DNA of 64,000 bases from positions 2,940,501 to 3,004,500 of the forward strand of contig NZ_CP069338.1 of the NCBI RefSeq assembly GCF_016859125.1, written 5' to 3'. A program made the translations under genes and the position numbers. Source of the DNA: Archangium violaceum. Lineage in GTDB: Bacteria; Myxococcota; Myxococcia; Myxococcales; Myxococcaceae. A model generated the notes under the pieces. That model was not told the DNA's origin, made no database searches, and saw only the letters and a program-made list of their open reading frames with translations. Of this stretch, positions 7,634 through 16,396 are shown piece after piece (the stretch's first letter is position 1; every line of letters begins with the position of its first letter).

Positions 7634-9349
7634 ATGAAACAGTACGAGAAGAAGCTCGACGCGAACGGCCGCCCCTACCTGGAGACGAACCTCACGGGGC
7701 TCGTGCTCACCCGCCTGCCCCTGCTCAACAAGGGTCCCTCCTTCACGCTGGAGGAGCGGCGCGAGTTCGGGCTGATGGGCCTGCTCCCCCCGAAGGTGTC
7801 GTCCCTGGACGAGCAGATCGAGCGCTCCTACGCCAACTTCCGCTCCTTCCGCTCGGACCTGGAGAAGCACGTCTTCCTGCGCGCCCTGCAGGACCGCAGC
7901 GAGGTGCTCTTCTACGCGCTGCTCAACCGGCACATCGAGGAGATGATGCCCATCATCTACACCCCCACGGTGGCGCAGGCGGTGGAGCAGTTCAGCCGCA
8001 TCTACCGCTACCCCCGCGGGCTGGTGGTGAGCCCGGAGAACATCGGCGACATCGACGCGATGCTGGAGAACACGCCCTTCCCGGACGTGCAGCTGATCGT
8101 GGCCACGGACAACGAGGGGATTCTGGGCATCGGCGACCAGGGCTTCGGCGGCCTGGCCATCTGCATCGGCAAGCTGTCCCTGTACACGGCCGCGGCGGGC
8201 ATCGACCCGGCGGTGACGCTGCCGGTGGAGCTGGACGTGGGCACCCACCGCAAGGAGCTGCTCGATGATCCGCTCTACCTGGGCGTGAAGCGCCCGCGCA
8301 TGGAGGGCAAGGAGTACGACGACTTCATCCACACCTTCGTGATGGCGCTCAAGAAGCGCTTCCCCAACGTGCTGGTGCAGTGGGAGGACTTCAGCAAGCA
8401 GAAGGCCTTCGACGTGCTGGACCGGTACCGGGACGTGCTGCCCTCGCTCAACGACGACGTGCAGGGCACGGGCGCGGTGGTGCTGGCGGGCCTGCTGTCG
8501 GCCACGCGGCGCAGCCAGACGACGCTCGGGCAGCAGGTGTACGTGGTGCACGGCGCGGGCGCGGGCGGCGTGGGCGTGGCGCGGCAGATCGTCCGCGGCA
8601 TGGAGCGCGAGGGCCTGAGCACGAAGGAGGCGCGCGAGCGCATCTTCCTCATCGACTCCAAGGGCCTCATCCTGAAGGACCGCAAGGGGCTGGAGCCCTA
8701 CAAGCTGGAGTTCGCGCACGAGCCGTCGCGCGTGGCGGGCTGGAAGCTGAAGGGCGCGATTCCCAGCCTGCTGGAGACGGCGCGGGAGGCGAAGGTGACG
8801 GTGCTGCTGGGCCTGAGTGGCCAGCGCGCGGCGTTCGGCGAGGACGTGGTGAAGGCGGTGGCGGCCAACACGCCCTACCCGGTGGTGTTCGCGCTGAGCA
8901 ACCCCACGGCGAACAGCGAGGCGGTGCCGGAGGACATCTACCGGTGGACGCAGGGCAAGGCGCTGGTGGCCACGGGCAGCCCCTTCGAGGACGTGGAGTG
9001 GGACGGGGCGCCGCACCCGGTGGGCCAGGGCAACAACGCCTTCATCTTCCCGGGCCTGGGGCTGGGCGTGCTGCTGACGCGCTCGAAGCGGGTGACGGAC
9101 GGCATGCTGACGGCGGCGTCGCTGGCGCTGGCGGACTACACGGACGGCGCCCGGCTGGCGCAGGGCGCGCTCTACCCGCGCATGGACAGGCTGCGCGCGG
9201 CGAGCCGGCAGGTGGCCATCGCCGTGATGCGCCAGGCGGTGAAGGAGGAGGTGGCCACGCGCGAGCTGCCCGAGGACCTCGAGGGCCTGCTCGAGGCCGA
9301 GATGTGGCGGCCCGAGTTCCTCCCCCTGCGGCGCGCGCCGGGGCAGTGA
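7634..9349 (+). CDS. NAD-dependent malic enzyme
   Basis: A 571-residue protein collinear with the large malic enzymes (MaeA/SfcA type, about 565 residues). The N-terminal malic domain carries LNKGPSFTLEER, the catalytic-Tyr region IIYTPTVAQAVE and the GILGIGDQGFGGLAI loop. The NAD-binding domain carries GAGAGGVGVARQ, then FALSNPTANSEA and the TGSPF turn. It oxidatively decarboxylates malate to pyruvate and CO2, linking the TCA cycle to gluconeogenic or acetyl-CoA supply. The ribosome site before the ATG is weak. Length and motifs favour NAD over NADP, but cofactor choice is not certain. An inverted repeat just after the stop may end transcription. Confidence 0.93.
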   Translation: MKQYEKKLDANGRPYLETNLTGLVLTRLPLLNKGPSFTLEERREFGLMGLLPPKVSSLDEQIERSYANFRSFRSDLEKHVFLRALQDRSEVLFYALLNRHIEEMMPIIYTPTVAQAVEQFSRIYRYPRGLVVSPENIGDIDAMLENTPFPDVQLIVATDNEGILGIGDQGFGGLAICIGKLSLYTAAAGIDPAVTLPVELDVGTHRKELLDDPLYLGVKRPRMEGKEYDDFIHTFVMALKKRFPNVLVQWEDFSKQKAFDVLDRYRDVLPSLNDDVQGTGAVVLAGLLSATRRSQTTLGQQVYVVHGAGAGGVGVARQIVRGMEREGLSTKEARERIFLIDSKGLILKDRKGLEPYKLEFAHEPSRVAGWKLKGAIPSLLETAREAKVTVLLGLSGQRAAFGEDVVKAVAANTPYPVVFALSNPTANSEAVPEDIYRWTQGKALVATGSPFEDVEWDGAPHPVGQGNNAFIFPGLGLGVLLTRSKRVTDGMLTAASLALADYTDGARLAQGALYPRMDRLRAASRQVAIAVMRQAVKEEVATRELPEDLEGLLEAEMWRPEFLPLRRAPGQ

Positions 9350-9378: not shown

Positions 9379-9404
9379 CTCCAGCCCCGCGTCAGCGGCT
9401 GGAG
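9379..9404. terminator. Hairpin between convergent genes
   Basis: CTCCAGCC (9379-9386) and GGCTGGAG (9397-9404) form a perfect 8-bp stem with a 10-base loop. It lies between the malic enzyme and the convergent histidine kinase and overlaps the kinase stop codon. No T-tract follows on either strand, so it is only a possible bidirectional terminator. Confidence 0.35.
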
Positions 9405-12268
9405 CCGGGCCCGGTCCCTCGGGGCACGCGCACGGTGAAGGTGGTGCCCGCCTCGCCGGTGCTCACCTCCACCCGCCCGCCGTGCCCCTCCACCACCTGG
9501 CGCACGATGTACAGCCCCAACCCCAGGCTCCCCGCCGGCCGGAACTTCGACATGCCCCGGCGGAACGGCTCGAAGAGCACCGGCAACAGCTCCTGAGGAA
9601 TGGGCGCTCCCTCGTTGGAGACCGACAACTCCACCTCTCCCCTCCGCGAGTGCACCTTCACGCGCACCGCCGTCCCCTCCCTCGCGTGCCTGAGCGCGTT
9701 GGACAGCAGGTTGGAGAGCACCTGCCTCATGCGCGGGCCGTCCCACTGCCCCTCGCAATGGGGGTCTCCCTCCAGGCGGATGTCGCTGCTCGGGTGCGTC
9801 ACGGAGAACTCGTCGATGACCTCGTGGCACAGCCGCACCAGGTCGTTCGCCGTGCGCTCCAGGGGAATGCCTCCGCCCAGCCGCCCCCGCGTGAAGTCGA
9901 GCAGGTCCGAAATCATCCGCCCCATGTTGTCCGCGCTGTTCGCGATGCGCCCCGACGTGCGCATCAGCGCTTCCGGCGTGGGCCGCTCCATCCGCTGCAG
10001 CGTGCGCGCCCCCAGGGAAATGGCCTGCAAGGGATTGCGCAGATCATGGCTCACCACCCCGAGGAACTGCTGCTCCAGCTCCGACCGCTGCCGCGCCTCT
10101 TCGTAGAGCCGCGCCCGTTCCAGGGCCTGGGCCCCCAGCTGACAGAGCGACTCCAGGTTCGCCTCCTCCTGGGGACTGATGCGGCGCTGCGAGAGGAAGC
10201 TCAACCCCAGCACGCCCACCACCCGCTCGCCGTCCTTCAGCGGCATGACCCCCCAGGAGCGGCGCGAGCTCCCACTCAACCGCCGGGCGACGTCGGGCCA
10301 GCCCCGCTCGAAGGCATCACGGGATTCGATCCACACCGCGCGTCCCGTGCGCACCGCCTCCGCGAGGGGGGTGGGATCGGTGATCGACATGGACTGGTAC
10401 GCGCGAAGCAATTCCTCCGGGTAGCCAACCGCCCCGAGCACGACCAACGCCCCGCCCACCCTCACGCAGACGGAGCCCGCACAGGCCTCCAACGATTTCA
10501 GCCCGTGCTCCACCAGCGCATCGGCCACCTGCTTCGGGGTGAGCGCGTGCGCGAAGGCGGCCGTGGTGGCCTGGAGGGCCGCGGCATGCTGCTCGGCCAG
10601 CTTGCGCTCGGTGATGTCCAGCACGGTGCCCAGCATGTGGACCCGTCCATTCGCGTCGGAGTGCACCCGGCCCCGCGAGGCCACCCACCGGAGCACTCCG
10701 TCCTGGAGCCCCAGCGTCCGGTACTCGGCCTCATGGATGCCTCCGTCCTGGCCGGACAACGCGCGCTCGAAGCGCTCCTCCACCCGCGCGCGGTCATCCG
10801 GGTGCACGCCCTCCATCCACCTGTCGTACGTCACGCGCGCATCGGGCGGCAGCCCGAACAACTCCCGGGTACGCGCGTCCCACTCCAGCTCCCGCGTGCC
10901 CGGCGTGTAGCTCCAGACTCCGAGCGCGGCGGACTCCATCGCCAGGCGCAACCGCTCCTCGCTCCTCCGCAGCGACCCCTGGGTGGCCTTCTGCTCGGTG
11001 ATGTCCTCCACCGTCAGCACGCTGGCGACGATGGTGCCCTCCGCGTCGCGCACGGGCGCGGCGCACGTCCGGGTGAGCCGGGTCGAGCCATCCTCGTGGC
11101 GGATGGCGAGCTCCTCCGCCACCGTCTCCCCCTCGCGCAGCGAGCGCACCAGCGGCAACTCCTCCATCCGGTAGGGCCGCCCATCCAGGTGCAGGAGGCG
11201 CTGCGCGCGGTACTCCGCCGACATCTGCCGCACGGGCGACCCCACGAAGGAGACCAGCCGCTCATTGGTCAGCAGCGTCCGGCCCGAGGGGGCCTCGGCG
11301 ATGAGGACGCCCGTGGGCATCTGCTGCAACACGGCGTTGAGCAGCCGCTCCTTGGACTCCAATTCGGCCATGAGCTGATTCAGCTGGCGCTCGGCCTGCC
11401 GGCGCGCGGTGATGTCCACCACCACCGTCACGCCCCGGCGCGACTCGCCCTCGAACAGCGCGGAGCCGCGAATCACGTCCACCCGCGTGCCGTCCTTGCG
11501 CAGGTACTGCTTCTCCATCAGCTCGGACACGCCCGTCTCGAGCAGTGCCTGGACGCTGCGGTGGTCCTGCTCCCGCCACTCGGGGGGCGACATCTTCCGC
11601 CAGTTGAGCAGGCCCTGCTCCAGCTCCTCGCGCGTGGCGCCCACCATCTCCAGGAAGGTGTCGTTGGCATCGAGGATGGTGCCATCCAGATCCCAATAGT
11701 AGGTGCCCACCACGCCGGACTCGGTGAGCCGCCGCGCGCGCGCCTCGGACCTCTCCAGCTCGCGCTGCAGCCGCTGCTGTTCGGCCAGGGCCTCCTCGTG
11801 CTCGCGCTTGCGGGCCAGCTCTCCCCGACGCATGCGCACCAGGGCCCACGTCTGCGCCACCAGGTGCTTGGGCTCGATGGGTTGGGGGATGTAGCCGTCC
11901 GCCCCATCCTCGAAGAGCCGCGCCTCCAGCTCCTCGTCCCGCAGCAACGAGGAGACATAGAGCACGGGGATGGCGGCGGTGGTGGGGTCCTCCTTGAGCC
12001 GGCGACAGACGTCGAAGCCGCTCATGTCCGGCAGACGCACGTCCAGCACCACCACGTCCGGCCGGAGCGCCGCCGCCGTCAGGGCCTCCTGGCCATTGGC
12101 CGCCTCCAGCACTTCCATGCCCGCCCGGCGCAGCGCCTTGACGATGACGTACCGCTTGGCCTCCGTGTCATCCACCACCAGCACCCGCCCTTCCATCCGG
12201 GGGGTGGAGGCCTGCTCCCCTCGCGACGCCCACCGCGGAGAAGGCTCGGGGTTACTGCTGCTCGACAA
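9392..12268 (-). CDS. Hybrid sensor histidine kinase (REC-PAS-PAS-PAS-GAF-HisKA-HATPase)
   Basis: About 958 residues from a TTG start at 12268. The TTG is chosen because AGGAG sits 8 bases upstream and the downstream paralogue has the same TTG-TCG-AGC-AGC start. Domains in order: receiver (about 27-142, phospho-Asp D76 in VVVLDVRLPD), a short coiled coil rich in Glu/Arg, three PAS domains (about 180-290, 308-428, 440-560), GAF (about 572-715), HisKA with phospho-His741 (VSHDLRNP), and HATPase with the N box (SNLLSNALRHA) and GLGLYIV. No membrane helix, so it is a soluble sensor whose receiver is probably an input. Its gene pairs with the paralogue at 12371-14902; the middle PAS is the main difference. 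Confidence 0.92.
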   Translation of the reverse strand: MSSSSNPEPSPRWASRGEQASTPRMEGRVLVVDDTEAKRYVIVKALRRAGMEVLEAANGQEALTAAALRPDVVVLDVRLPDMSGFDVCRRLKEDPTTAAIPVLYVSSLLRDEELEARLFEDGADGYIPQPIEPKHLVAQTWALVRMRRGELARKREHEEALAEQQRLQRELERSEARARRLTESGVVGTYYWDLDGTILDANDTFLEMVGATREELEQGLLNWRKMSPPEWREQDHRSVQALLETGVSELMEKQYLRKDGTRVDVIRGSALFEGESRRGVTVVVDITARRQAERQLNQLMAELESKERLLNAVLQQMPTGVLIAEAPSGRTLLTNERLVSFVGSPVRQMSAEYRAQRLLHLDGRPYRMEELPLVRSLREGETVAEELAIRHEDGSTRLTRTCAAPVRDAEGTIVASVLTVEDITEQKATQGSLRRSEERLRLAMESAALGVWSYTPGTRELEWDARTRELFGLPPDARVTYDRWMEGVHPDDRARVEERFERALSGQDGGIHEAEYRTLGLQDGVLRWVASRGRVHSDANGRVHMLGTVLDITERKLAEQHAAALQATTAAFAHALTPKQVADALVEHGLKSLEACAGSVCVRVGGALVVLGAVGYPEELLRAYQSMSITDPTPLAEAVRTGRAVWIESRDAFERGWPDVARRLSGSSRRSWGVMPLKDGERVVGVLGLSFLSQRRISPQEEANLESLCQLGAQALERARLYEEARQRSELEQQFLGVVSHDLRNPLQAISLGARTLQRMERPTPEALMRTSGRIANSADNMGRMISDLLDFTRGRLGGGIPLERTANDLVRLCHEVIDEFSVTHPSSDIRLEGDPHCEGQWDGPRMRQVLSNLLSNALRHAREGTAVRVKVHSRRGEVELSVSNEGAPIPQELLPVLFEPFRRGMSKFRPAGSLGLGLYIVRQVVEGHGGRVEVSTGEAGTTFTVRVPRGTGPGSSR

Positions 12269-12370
12269 GATGTGGACTCCTGTTCGCCTGGGGGGCAGGC
12301 GTGTACGAAAAAGTTCTGCCACGGAACACCTCGACGAGTCCCGAGAGTCCGCTCGAGGCTGTCCACCACC

Positions 12371-14902
12371 TTACGGGCCAGGCCTGGAGTCTTCCCCTCG
12401 CCTGGGAGGTGGCTCCGCCGTCTGGGATACCCGTACGGTGAAGGTGGTGCCCGCCTCGCCGGTGCTCACCTCCACCCGCCCGCCGTGCCCCTCCACCACC
12501 TGGCGCACGATGTACAGCCCCAGCCCCAGGCTCCCCGACGGCCGGAACTTCGACATGCCCCGGCGGAACGGCTCGAAGAGCACTGGCAATAATTCCTCCG
12601 GAATGGGCGCGCCCTCGTTGAACACCGATAGCTCCACCTCCCCCTCCCGCGCGAGCACCCTCACGCACACCGCCGACCCCTCCCTCGCGTGCCTGAGCGC
12701 GTTGGACAGCAGGTTGGAGAGCACCTGCCTCATGCGCGGGCCGTCCCACTGCCCCTCGCACAACGCATCGCCCTCCAGGCGGATGTCCCGGTCCGGGTGC
12801 GTCACGGAGAACTCGTCGATGACCTCCCGGCACAGCCGCACCATCTCGTTCCTCTCGCGCTCCAGGGGGATGCCTCCACCCAGCCGCCCCCGCGTGAAGT
12901 CGAGCAGGTCCGAAATCATCCGCCCCATCGTGTCCGCGCTGTTCGCGATGCGCCCCGCCGTGCGCAACAGGGCCTCCGGCGCGGGCTTCTCCATGCGCTG
13001 CAGCGTGCGAGCGCCCAGCGAGATGGCCATCAGCGGGTTGCGCAGATCATGGCTCACCACCCCGAGGAACTGCTGCTCCAGCTCGGCGCGCTGCCGCGCC
13101 TCCTCCTTCGCCCGACGCTCCTCCTCGTAGAGCCAGGCGCGCGCCAGGGCCTGGGCACACAGCGCGCAGAGCGACTCCAGGTGCGCCATGTCCTGAGGAC
13201 TGAAGCGGCGCAGCGAGGAGAAGCTCAACCCCAGCACGCCCACCACCCGCTCGCCATCCTTCAGCGGAATGCTCAGCCAGGTGCGGCTGCGGCTCCCCTG
13301 GAGGATCTTGAAGAACTCGGGCCACTCCCGCTCCAGGGACTCGGTGGCCTGGAGCCAGACGGTCCGCCCCTCGAGCGCCGCCAGGCAGGAAGGGGCGCGG
13401 ATGTCGAGCGGGAAGTCGCCATGTTTCTGGAGAATGTGGCTGGGGTAGCCGAAGTGGCTGATCATCCGCAGCTGCCCGTCCTCCACCTGGCTGACGGAGC
13501 CCGCGTAGGCATCCAGCGACTTCAACCCATGCTCCACCAGGGCCTCGGCCACCTGCCGCGGGGTGAGCGCATTGGCGAAGGCGGCCGTGGTGGCCTGGAG
13601 CGCCGCGGAGCGCTGCTCGTTCAACTTGCGCTCGGTGATGTCCAGCCAGATGCCCGAGAAGCTGAGCGCCCGCCCCGCCTCGTCGAAGAGCACCCGGCCC
13701 CGCGCGGACACCCACCGCAGCATTCCGTCTTGCAGCCCCACCACGCGGAACTCGGTCCCGAAGAAGCCCCCGTTTCCGCCCGACAGCGCGCGCTCGACCG
13801 CCGCCGTCACCTGCTCCAAATCCTCCGGGTGCACCCCCGTCCGCCACACCTCGGGCCGCACGGAGGCCTGCGGCGGCAGACCGAACATCTCCTTGGCGCG
13901 CGCGTCCCAGCGCACCTCCCCGGTGGGGATGTCGTAGCTCCACGTGCCGAGCTCGGCGGCATCGAGCGCCATCCGCAACCGCGACCGGCTGGACTCCAGC
14001 TCCAACATGAGCTGCTTCAGCCGGCGCTCGGCCTCGCGGCGCTCCGTGAGGTCCACCACCATCGTCACGCCCCGGTCGGCCTCGCCCTCGAGCGAGGCGA
14101 CCCCCAGCATCACATCCACCCGCGTGCCGTCCTTGCGCAGGTACTGCTTCTCGTACAGCACGCTGACGCCCTGGGCCTGGAGCTCCCCGAACGCCCGGGC
14201 ATCCGCCGCCTCCCATTCGGGGGGCGTCATCTTCCGCCAGTCGAGCAGACCCCGCGCCAGGTCCTCGCGCGTGTAGCCCACCAGCGACAGGAAGGTGTCG
14301 TTGGCATCGAGGATGGTGCCATCCAGGTCCCAATAGACGATGCCCACCATGCCGGACTCGGTGAGCCGCCGCGCCCGCGCCTGGGACCTCTCCAGCTCGC
14401 GCTGCAGCCGCTGCCGCTCGGCCTCGGCCTCCTCGCGCTCGCGCTGACGGGCCAGCTCCGCCCGCCGCATGCGCACCAGGGCCCACGTCTGCGCCACCAG
14501 GTGCTTGGACTCGATGGGCTGGGGAATGTAGCCGTCCGCCCCGTCCACGAAGAGCCGCTCCTCCAACTCCTCGTCCCGAAGCAGGGCGGAGATGTAGAGC
14601 ACGGGAATGGCGGCGGTGACGGGATTCTGCTTGAGCCGGCGGCAGACATCGAAGCCGTTCATGTCCGACAGGCGCACATCCAACACCACCACGTCCGGCT
14701 GCGTGGCCACCGCCGCGAGCGCCTCGCCTCCGCTGGACGCCTCCAGCACCTCCATGCCCGCCAGGCGCAGCGTCTGCGCGATGAGGTAGCGCTTGGCCTC
14801 CGTGTCATCGACGACCAGCACCCGCCCTTCCAATCGGGGGGCGGAGACCAGCTTCGCGGGCGACCCCCATCTCGAGGAGGAGGCGTGGTTGCTGCTCGAC
14901 AA
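12371..14902 (-). CDS. Hybrid sensor histidine kinase (REC-PAS-PAS-GAF-HisKA-HATPase), paralogue of the next gene
   Basis: 843 residues from a TTG start with GAGGAG upstream. Domains: receiver (about 27-142, D75), Glu/Arg coiled coil, two PAS domains (about 180-290 and 310-425), GAF (about 445-590), HisKA with phospho-His618 (VSHDLRNPL), and HATPase (SNLLSNALRHA, GLGLYIV). It is a tandem paralogue of 9392-12268. The receiver, first PAS and kinase core are near identical, the GAF domains have diverged more, and the middle PAS of the neighbour is absent. The kinase gene ends are almost identical at DNA level (for example around 9440-9510 and 12450-12520). Cytoplasmic; signal and output unknown. 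The two genes lie about 100 bases apart in the same direction, so this one is probably upstream in a shared transcript. Confidence 0.92.
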   Translation of the reverse strand: MSSSNHASSSRWGSPAKLVSAPRLEGRVLVVDDTEAKRYLIAQTLRLAGMEVLEASSGGEALAAVATQPDVVVLDVRLSDMNGFDVCRRLKQNPVTAAIPVLYISALLRDEELEERLFVDGADGYIPQPIESKHLVAQTWALVRMRRAELARQREREEAEAERQRLQRELERSQARARRLTESGMVGIVYWDLDGTILDANDTFLSLVGYTREDLARGLLDWRKMTPPEWEAADARAFGELQAQGVSVLYEKQYLRKDGTRVDVMLGVASLEGEADRGVTMVVDLTERREAERRLKQLMLELESSRSRLRMALDAAELGTWSYDIPTGEVRWDARAKEMFGLPPQASVRPEVWRTGVHPEDLEQVTAAVERALSGGNGGFFGTEFRVVGLQDGMLRWVSARGRVLFDEAGRALSFSGIWLDITERKLNEQRSAALQATTAAFANALTPRQVAEALVEHGLKSLDAYAGSVSQVEDGQLRMISHFGYPSHILQKHGDFPLDIRAPSCLAALEGRTVWLQATESLEREWPEFFKILQGSRSRTWLSIPLKDGERVVGVLGLSFSSLRRFSPQDMAHLESLCALCAQALARAWLYEEERRAKEEARQRAELEQQFLGVVSHDLRNPLMAISLGARTLQRMEKPAPEALLRTAGRIANSADTMGRMISDLLDFTRGRLGGGIPLERERNEMVRLCREVIDEFSVTHPDRDIRLEGDALCEGQWDGPRMRQVLSNLLSNALRHAREGSAVCVRVLAREGEVELSVFNEGAPIPEELLPVLFEPFRRGMSKFRPSGSLGLGLYIVRQVVEGHGGRVEVSTGEAGTTFTVRVSQTAEPPPRRGEDSRPGP

Positions 14903-15076
14903 AACGGGGGCTCCTCATCAACTGGGGGAGGCAGGCATCGGCGGATGGATTTCTGCCATGACCCGCCCGGCCCAGTCCCGAACACACCGGCCTGGAGGAA
15001 AACAGGTGTCGACCACCTTACGCGTCCCAAGGCCGCCCTCCCGCCCTCCAGGGAGGCGAGCACGAGGAGGAACACC

Positions 15077-16396
15077 TCACCCCGAGTGCCGCGAGGAGCC
15101 TCCGGGTGTGTCCTCTCCCAGGCCGGGCAGCTCCATCTGTGTCCGGGAGCGAGGCGCGCGCCGCCAGCCGGGACGCCCCGAGGGCCTGCGAGGCGGAGCA
15201 TCGGTGGGCAGCAACTCGGTTGCATCCCTCCAACCGGCCTGAACGAGCTCCTCGAAGGAAGGGCCGGTGGCCACGGACTCGAGCCGGCGCGCCTGCCGGT
15301 CCAGCTCGCGCAGGGCCTGGAGCTTCTCGTCATTGCCGAGCCTCGCCGCGTCCACCGCCGCGCGCAACACGCGCAGGGTCTCGTCGTAGACGTCGAGCCG
15401 CACCGGGAAGGGCTGCCGGTCCTTGCCGCCCTGGGCGAAGGCGAAGCGCGCCGGGTCCGTGAAGCGCGCGGGCGAGCCATGGAGCACCTCGGCGACGGTG
15501 GCCAGCGCCGCCACCGTGCGCGCGCCCACGCCGGGGGTGAGGAGCAGCTCGGAGAAGTCCTTGGGGCCCTGCTCGGCCGCGGCGGCGAGCGTGCCGTGGA
15601 GCCGGCGCAGCAGCACATCGCCGGGCGCCACCTCCTCGTGCTCGGGCATCTGCAGGTGGGGCAGCGGCGGGGTGTAGGGTACGGGCTCGGGCTGGGGACG
15701 CAGCTTGCGCAACGCGCCCAGCACCACGTCCGGCCCCTGGGACACGAGCTCCACCTGCGCGGCGCGGGCCATGGCGGCGCGCTTGTCCGTGAGGTTGAGG
15801 ATGACGCCCTGGTTGGGCCCGTGGATGGCGGCGTGGGGCGAGTCCACGAAGCTGCCGAGCCCCTCGGACAGCCAGTGGTAGCGCCGGGCCTGCCGGGCCT
15901 CCGGGTTCATCCCCTGCTGCACCACGGCCCACGCGTTGTCGTCCGAGAGGATGAGGCTGTGGGCATACAGCTCGAAGCCGTCCTGCACGGCGGCGCTGTC
16001 CACCCTGGCCGCCAGACGGCTGGCGCGGATGAGCGCGTCGGCGTCGATGCCCACCCGGTCGCCGATGATGCGCAGCTCGTCGGGGGTGCGGCGCGCCTGC
16101 ACGCCCTTGCCCCCCACCACGTACAGTCCGAGCTGACGGCCACCCGGGGTGAGCCCGCGCTTGAGTGCGCCGAGCACGGTGGTGGTGACGCCCGAGGAGT
16201 GCCAGTCCATGCCCATGACGGCGCCGAGCGACTGGAACCAGAAGGGGTGCGCGAGCCGGCGCAGCACCTCGTGACGGCCGTAGTGGAGGACGAGCGCCTC
16301 CACCAGCACGCGGCTCATGCGCGCCATGCGCTCGGCGAGCCAGTCCGGCACGCGGCCGGAATGGAGGGGAAGGTCTGCACTGCCCGTACGGTCCAT
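15077..16396 (-). CDS. DUF763 domain-containing protein
   Basis: A 439-residue soluble protein matching DUF763, a family of unknown function found in archaea and scattered bacteria. Characteristic stretches are the N-terminal TGSADLPLHSGRVPDWL, the WFQSLGAVMGMDWHSSGVTTTVLGALK segment, GVQARRTPDEL and YHWLSEGLGSFVDSPHAAI. A helix-hairpin-helix-like 'LLTPGVGARTVAALA' near residue 285 hints at nucleic-acid contact, which is an inference. The C-terminal tail is Arg/Ser-rich. The ATG at 16396 has GGAG five bases upstream, and a palindrome covers the leader. Confidence 0.85.
   Translation of the reverse strand: MDRTGSADLPLHSGRVPDWLAERMARMSRVLVEALVLHYGRHEVLRRLAHPFWFQSLGAVMGMDWHSSGVTTTVLGALKRGLTPGGRQLGLYVVGGKGVQARRTPDELRIIGDRVGIDADALIRASRLAARVDSAAVQDGFELYAHSLILSDDNAWAVVQQGMNPEARQARRYHWLSEGLGSFVDSPHAAIHGPNQGVILNLTDKRAAMARAAQVELVSQGPDVVLGALRKLRPQPEPVPYTPPLPHLQMPEHEEVAPGDVLLRRLHGTLAAAAEQGPKDFSELLLTPGVGARTVAALATVAEVLHGSPARFTDPARFAFAQGGKDRQPFPVRLDVYDETLRVLRAAVDAARLGNDEKLQALRELDRQARRLESVATGPSFEELVQAGWRDATELLPTDAPPRRPSGRPGWRRAPRSRTQMELPGLGEDTPGGSSRHSG

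Follow-up and report, generated by a model that had tools for sequence, protein, structure and literature searches.

The stretch of DNA analysed here (64,000 nt, called the window, with all positions counted from its first letter) comes from a 12.68 Mb genome (G000) of a soil myxobacterium of the genus Archangium and contains two histidine kinase genes, A and B, in head-to-tail orientation on the minus strand. They are flanked upstream by a DUF763 gene (15077..16396, minus strand) and downstream by a malic enzyme gene (7634..9349, plus strand), both of which served as synteny anchors. B is transcribed first and A follows after 102 nt, the gene at the lower coordinates (A) being the second in transcription. 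Kinase B (12371..14902, minus strand) consists of 843 aa with the domain order REC-PAS1-PAS3-GAF-HisKA-HATPase, and kinase A (9392..12268, minus strand) of 958 aa with the order REC-PAS1-PAS2-PAS3-GAF-HisKA-HATPase. All five domain types were above the Pfam cut-off in both proteins, which are hybrid histidine kinases with an N-terminal receiver, as each combines a REC domain, a HisKA domain with an H-box and a HATPase domain. The additional PAS2 of A is a unit of 130 residues (residues 306-435; 10964..11353, minus strand, carried in the ORF 9392-12322) without a counterpart in B. An AlphaFold2 model of A, which was obtained from 11 sequences (mean pLDDT 73.7 and pTM 0.32, with values under 50 for much of the DHp) and used for the domain count and the linker helices only, showed REC, three PAS domains, GAF and the kinase connected by helices, with the PAS2 unit ending inside two predicted linker helices. 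No membrane segment was found in B by a simple hydropathy scan, and the highest hydropathy window in A (1.91) corresponds to modelled GAF strands. Of 96 family genomes, only 12 have the DUF763 gene (window:15077-16396), and one of these 12 carries it in two pieces.

Searching 59 relatives at the DNA level, with five candidates scored per genome, we obtained long matches in the five other genomes of the genus (G001 to G005) and in an outgroup from another genus (G015), and no further full-length protein match above 37% was found in 96 family genomes with nine candidates scored each. Three genomes of the outgroup's genus (G032, G080 and G081) carry DUF763, and the kinase matches listed for them either align along the full length at about 30% or are limited to the kinase part, at 53% or less. 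The first-pass annotation had proposed a pair of tandem paralogues and would have been contradicted by relatives with unrelated versions only; in G002 and G004, the same pair of B and A occurs at the same position, and in the same order, as in G000. The other genomes differ in their state of the locus, with two three-PAS copies (X and Y) in G003, one three-PAS copy in G005, a single copy lacking the PAS1 core in G001 and a single copy with one PAS in the outgroup. Two copies are therefore present in four of the six genomes of the genus, and in three of these six as B plus A. Changes in PAS number among the relatives are thus established by sequence comparison, and with one outgroup, the states with one, two or three PAS domains could represent either gains or losses.

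Both kinase genes start with TTG at a homologous position, 8 nt after a GGAG motif; the A start at 12268 yields 958 aa, compared to 976 aa for the longest ORF. Among the 11 aligned genes, TTG is used in A, B, G003_Y and the outgroup gene of G015, and GTG in the other seven, two of which (G003_X and G005_S) contain a TTG directly after the GTG start. The TTG common to A and B is probably ancestral. We also considered it as a trace of conversion and rejected this, because the first part of REC leans to orthology and TTG is also found in G003_Y and G015. The 102-nt leader of A (12269..12370, minus strand) and the leader of B (aligned stretch 14903..15050, minus strand) contain short stretches which can be aligned with each other, with the relatives and with the outgroup; therefore, the duplicated unit may have included the leader or promoter.

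Over 827 aligned codons, A and B are identical at 79.7% of the DNA positions, and this identity is very unevenly distributed. By domain, it amounts to 0.90 in HATPase and HisKA, 0.89 in the linker, 0.85 in REC, 0.81 in PAS1 and 0.70 in both PAS3 and GAF, and the lowest 40-codon window (0.47) lies within GAF. At fourfold sites, where 0.47 is the random expectation from base composition, the values from the N-terminus onwards are 0.74 in the first part of REC, 0.93 in the stretch comprising the REC end, the linker and the PAS1 start (11648..11992 in A, 14285..14629 in B, both minus strand), 0.79 in the rest of PAS1, 0.66 in PAS3, 0.87 at the start of GAF, 0.62 in the diverged GAF core (10253..10477 in A and, with coordinates taken from the A/B alignment, 13277..13501 in B, both minus strand), 0.95 at the end of GAF, 0.82 in HisKA and 0.87 in HATPase. 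The longest identical runs of A and B (88 and 84 nt) are both located in the ATPase domain, compared to 53 nt as the longest run in five ortholog comparisons. The first-pass annotation had described a receiver, first PAS and kinase core common to both genes, near-identical DNA at the kinase ends, diverged GAF domains, a PAS present only in A and the same TTG context, and all of this was confirmed by the domain matches and by these values; a uniform identity along the genes, which would have spoken against its proposal, was not observed.

The HATPase value of 0.87 has to be read against the orthologs, which reach only 0.73-0.76 for A (G002, G004 and G003_Y) and 0.69 and 0.75 for B (G002 and G004) at the same class of sites. 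Because of these low ortholog values, codon constraint does not explain the similarity of A and B in this domain, with the reservation that G000_B and G001_S are 0.82 identical, which is closer to 0.87 than any other ortholog comparison and counts against conversion. The neighbouring genes form an unequal yardstick for G000 and G002, with fourfold identities of 0.77 for DUF763 and 0.86 for the malic enzyme gene, which also counts against it.

To compare the histories of the gene parts, we sorted the sites of A/B quartets from two genomes into those following orthology, those shared within a genome and those showing a noise pattern; the sensor set comprised the rest of PAS1, PAS3 and the GAF core, leaving out REC, the start and end of GAF and PAS2. 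With G000 and G002, the sensor gave 73 orthology, 17 within-genome and 13 noise sites, whereas the kinase gave 7, 37 and 4, respectively (Fisher test against the sensor, 4.5e-13), and with G000 and G004 the respective numbers were 77, 21 and 17 for the sensor and 11, 28 and 2 for the kinase (p 7.6e-8). The kinase halves of A (HisKA and HATPase, 9425..10102, minus strand) and B (12428..13105, minus strand) accordingly group with each other within G000, most clearly in HATPase, where within-genome sites outnumber orthology sites by 25 to 5 with G002 and by 21 to 5 with G004 when both parts of the domain are counted. HisKA alone gave 12 to 2 with G002 and an undecided 7 to 6 with G004, and its tree does not join G000_A with G000_B, which counts against conversion there. 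The REC end and linker form a second, weaker homogenised stretch in both genes, with 11 to 7 (G002) and 18 to 8 (G004) in favour of within-genome sites; the comparison of G002 with G004 gave 10 within-genome and 16 orthology sites in this stretch, and G000_A and G000_B stay apart in its tree, both of which count against conversion. In the first part of REC, orthology sites outnumber within-genome sites by 7 to 3 with G002 and by 10 to 3 with G004.

Trees of single segments had been calculated with 100 bootstraps, leaving out the last segment, and were replaced by an AU analysis, which was performed together with the final trees on nine genes, leaving out G001_S and G005_S. In the sensor parts, A genes group with A genes and B genes with B genes across the species, whereas the kinase halves group by genome. 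The AU test rejected the A/B orthology tree for the kinase (p 8.7e-5) and the within-genome tree for the sensor (p 1.0e-4); the support for the grouping of A and B of G000 was 82 in HATPase_a and 84 in the whole kinase, which we count as a limit. Because the sensor and kinase trees are opposite and each alternative is rejected by the AU test, the aligned genes clearly indicate that the duplication is older than the split of G000 from G002 and G004, and that segment-limited conversion occurred after it. Paralogues are closer than orthologues in HATPase and the reverse holds in PAS3 and the GAF core, a clear opposition in which the signal of conversion is plainest for HATPase and less plain for HisKA and for the stretch of REC end and linker. 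The proposal that the pair arose by duplication with gain or loss of a PAS domain and conversion at the kinase ends was thus borne out by quartets, trees and AU test, including the phylogeny of the segments, with HATPase giving the strongest case and HisKA staying undecided against G004.

We further polarised the 17 HATPase sites which are common to A and B within each pair and differ between G000 and G002/G004. With G003 as outgroup, 10 of them are derived in G000, 6 in G002/G004 and 1 is unpolarised; with G015, 5 are derived in G000, 9 in G002/G004 and 3 are unpolarised. Because derived sites occur in each, both lineages have undergone conversion in HATPase, the share of G000 being uncertain. 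The kinases of G002 and G004 compared with each other group by orthology (49 to 2 over three segments), and conversion there is therefore not recent. At sites diagnostic for A or B in G002/G004, the G000 copies lean to B in 906-966 (8/10 and 7/10) and are mixed in 831-905.

The single gene of G001 (G001_S) switches from B-type to A-type near A codon 924, with 35 A-like and 173 B-like sites before and 11 A-like and 1 B-like sites after the breakpoint (0 of 300 shuffles). When 11 sites of the tail were polarised with G000 as outgroup, 7 showed derived and 1 ancestral A states, 3 were unpolarised and none was B-like; with G003, the result was weaker (4 derived A, 3 ancestral A, 5 unpolarised). 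The order of upstream-copy states followed by derived downstream-copy states is that of a chimera formed by unequal recombination, and a B::A chimera is the best reading for this gene, well supported by the site patterns of this one genome. The loss of the PAS1 core in G001 is a change separate from the fusion. The match downstream of the gene end (149 nt at 90.6% to G002_A, compared to 64-83 nt for B copies) was not used as proof, because the stretches were cut at the stop codons and the C-terminus of B is longer, which favours A by construction. No malic enzyme gene was found in G001 within 8.4 kb after the kinase gene (L038:10622-19001), and the collapse may therefore be tied to a wider rearrangement.

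The two copies of G003 form a mosaic like that of the G000 pair. X and Y agree at 0.96 in the REC end and PAS1, where the values to G005_S are 0.89-0.92, and at only 0.74-0.78 in PAS2, PAS3 and the GAF core, where X shows 0.90-0.92 to G005_S; perfect runs between X and Y extend up to 128 nt. In the sensor tree, both copies group with the A genes (support 98), so that G003 has probably lost B or had it overwritten. Just 26 nt separate X and Y (L040:9397-9422), without the longer leader that precedes A elsewhere. The single gene of G005 also shows a breakpoint (69 Y-like and 279 X-like sites before, 32 and 13 after; 0 of 300 shuffles), and we considered it as a second chimera. This was rejected because most of the Y-like states in the tail are ancestral: among the 40 sites polarised there (855-968, with G000 as outgroup), 17 are Y-like and ancestral and 2 Y-like and derived, the others being X-like and ancestral (7), X-like and derived (0) or unpolarised (14). 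A change in G003_X accounts for the breakpoint better than a chimera.

Within the genome of the window, 150 of 274 HisKA candidates were scored, among which we found 16 cases of same-strand neighbours less than 5 kb apart, 4 of them apparently in one frame, as judged from equal frame lengths. Among these 16, only the A/B pair contains long between-gene repeats at 79-83% (1564 nt at 78.8% and 955 nt at 82.5%). Weaker between-gene repeats were found at two other loci (L169, 731 nt at 66.5%; L172, 638 nt at 64.9%), and the repeats at 72-78% of L170 and L176 are of a different kind, lying close together and not pairing one HisKA match with the other. A tandem unit of 276 nt with about 75-78% identity is located near another kinase (L176:770-2717), probably inside a frame of 1813 residues. 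As a donor of PAS2 from the same genome, the best other match shows 50% identity over query residues 1-128 and is too distant to be named.

We consider it probable that the locus originates from an old tandem duplication, followed by divergence of the sensors, a difference in PAS content, later segment-limited conversion and, in G001, collapse into a hybrid. The duplication would have given rise to two histidine kinases that begin with a receiver and have no evident membrane segment; their PAS3 and GAF parts would then have diverged, with one PAS inserted or excised between linker helices. After the species split, homologous recombination at the segments still similar would have copied sequence between A and B. 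Such copying is clear for the ATPase domain, probable for HisKA and weakly indicated for the REC end and linker, and the diverged PAS3/GAF core would have been spared. The same homology could collapse a pair into a single hybrid gene as in G001.

A reading which overlaps with this history and differs on function only, and to which we give somewhat less than an even chance, takes conversion as a by-product of similarity without selective meaning, in that diverged sensors stop recombining while similar kinases continue. It agrees with the location of the homogenised stretches at the highest identity, with their long perfect runs, and with the single-copy states of G001 and G005, which show that loss of the pair is possible; the persistence of two copies in four of six genomes, and of B plus A in three, speaks against it as weak evidence for use. 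Independent recent duplications in each lineage with later replacement of the sensor parts from elsewhere, as the kinase tree taken alone would suggest, are very improbable in view of the A-type and B-type sensors and the gene order common to G000, G002 and G004. Least probable, by a slight degree, is a stronger constraint on protein or codon usage in the kinase half without any conversion, which agrees with this half being better conserved than PAS3 and the GAF core wherever they were compared, but by itself cannot bring paralogues closer than orthologues and conflicts with the grouping of the kinase tree by genome and with HATPase fourfold identities of 0.69-0.76 in five ortholog comparisons against 0.87 within the genome (G000_B/G001_S 0.82).

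The H-box SHDLRNP is present in all 11 genes. The receiver pocket is described as containing an acidic pair, the phosphorylated Asp and a conserved Lys (PMC4395418, in the part consulted). The acidic DD pair and the Asp are retained in the receivers of all 11 genes, and Gln occupies the position of the conserved Lys in all 11 (GYIPQP; window:11858-12190 and 14492-14821), so that A and B lack the conserved Lys of a canonical phosphorylatable receiver. In the best REC matches, available for 61 of 80 loci, this position is occupied by E (31), K (20), H (6), F (2), Q (1) and L (1), the only Q belonging to the G001 gene itself; with 41 of 61 matches lacking the Lys, its absence is frequent in such receivers. 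Receiver phosphorylation may be altered in A and B. Because the DHp stretches of A and B are identical in 64 of 70 residues, common partners and mixed A/B dimers are plausible, while the divergence in PAS3 and the GAF core likely concerns the input parts. We infer that both kinases are active and report different signals to one partner. The retention of two inputs on one output would be our favoured interpretation, and a neutral reading fits the sequence data equally well. More tentatively, and rather doubtfully at present, the locus might act as a natural module-swapping device, in which conversion ties both kinases to a common output, PAS units are gained or excised at helix seams and an occasional collapse creates hybrids; if so, sensing could change quickly while the partner is not rewired.

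The diversification of histidine kinases is attributed to duplication and to changes in their sensors, and the steps are usually too old to be seen. At this one locus, six genomes of one genus and an outgroup display duplication, segment-limited conversion, variation in the number of PAS domains and a probable fusion. Since sensor and kinase halves of these genes record opposite histories, a tree calculated from whole genes can be misleading for tandem kinases. The pair also represents a natural test of partner sharing by paralogues with converted kinase halves.

A receiver preceding the histidine kinase is also found in AsgA of Myxococcus xanthus, and in the rhs genes, whose proteins are unrelated to A and B, one part is kept and another part varies. 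For the latter, C-terminal displacement has been described (PMC2935791, as far as consulted). We found no description of this kinase pair in the literature searched, which was covered partially by titles and the openings of abstracts. The parts consulted of a survey of myxobacterial receiver-transmitter ('RT') hybrid kinases report duplications and size changes mainly in the N-terminal regions of the kinases, explain a TRTTRT protein by tandem duplication and fusion, and name gene conversion as a process possibly promoted by many paralogues (PMC4603909). A and B resemble these RT kinases in having the receiver before the transmitter, and whereas those passages of the survey (PMC4603909) contain no worked case of conversion, the conversion in A/B is resolved by segment with the help of relatives. 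For the ntrX gene of Ehrlichia ruminantium, the part of the report consulted describes gene conversion from a partial inverted duplicate (PMC9937504). Both cases involve conversion between copies of a two-component gene; according to the same part of that report, an inverted partial copy inactivates the regulator in ntrX (PMC9937504), whereas A and B are both intact tandem kinases that have been homogenised in one half. Conversion between paralogues is already known, and the A/B pair is a well-resolved new case of it, not a new type of system.
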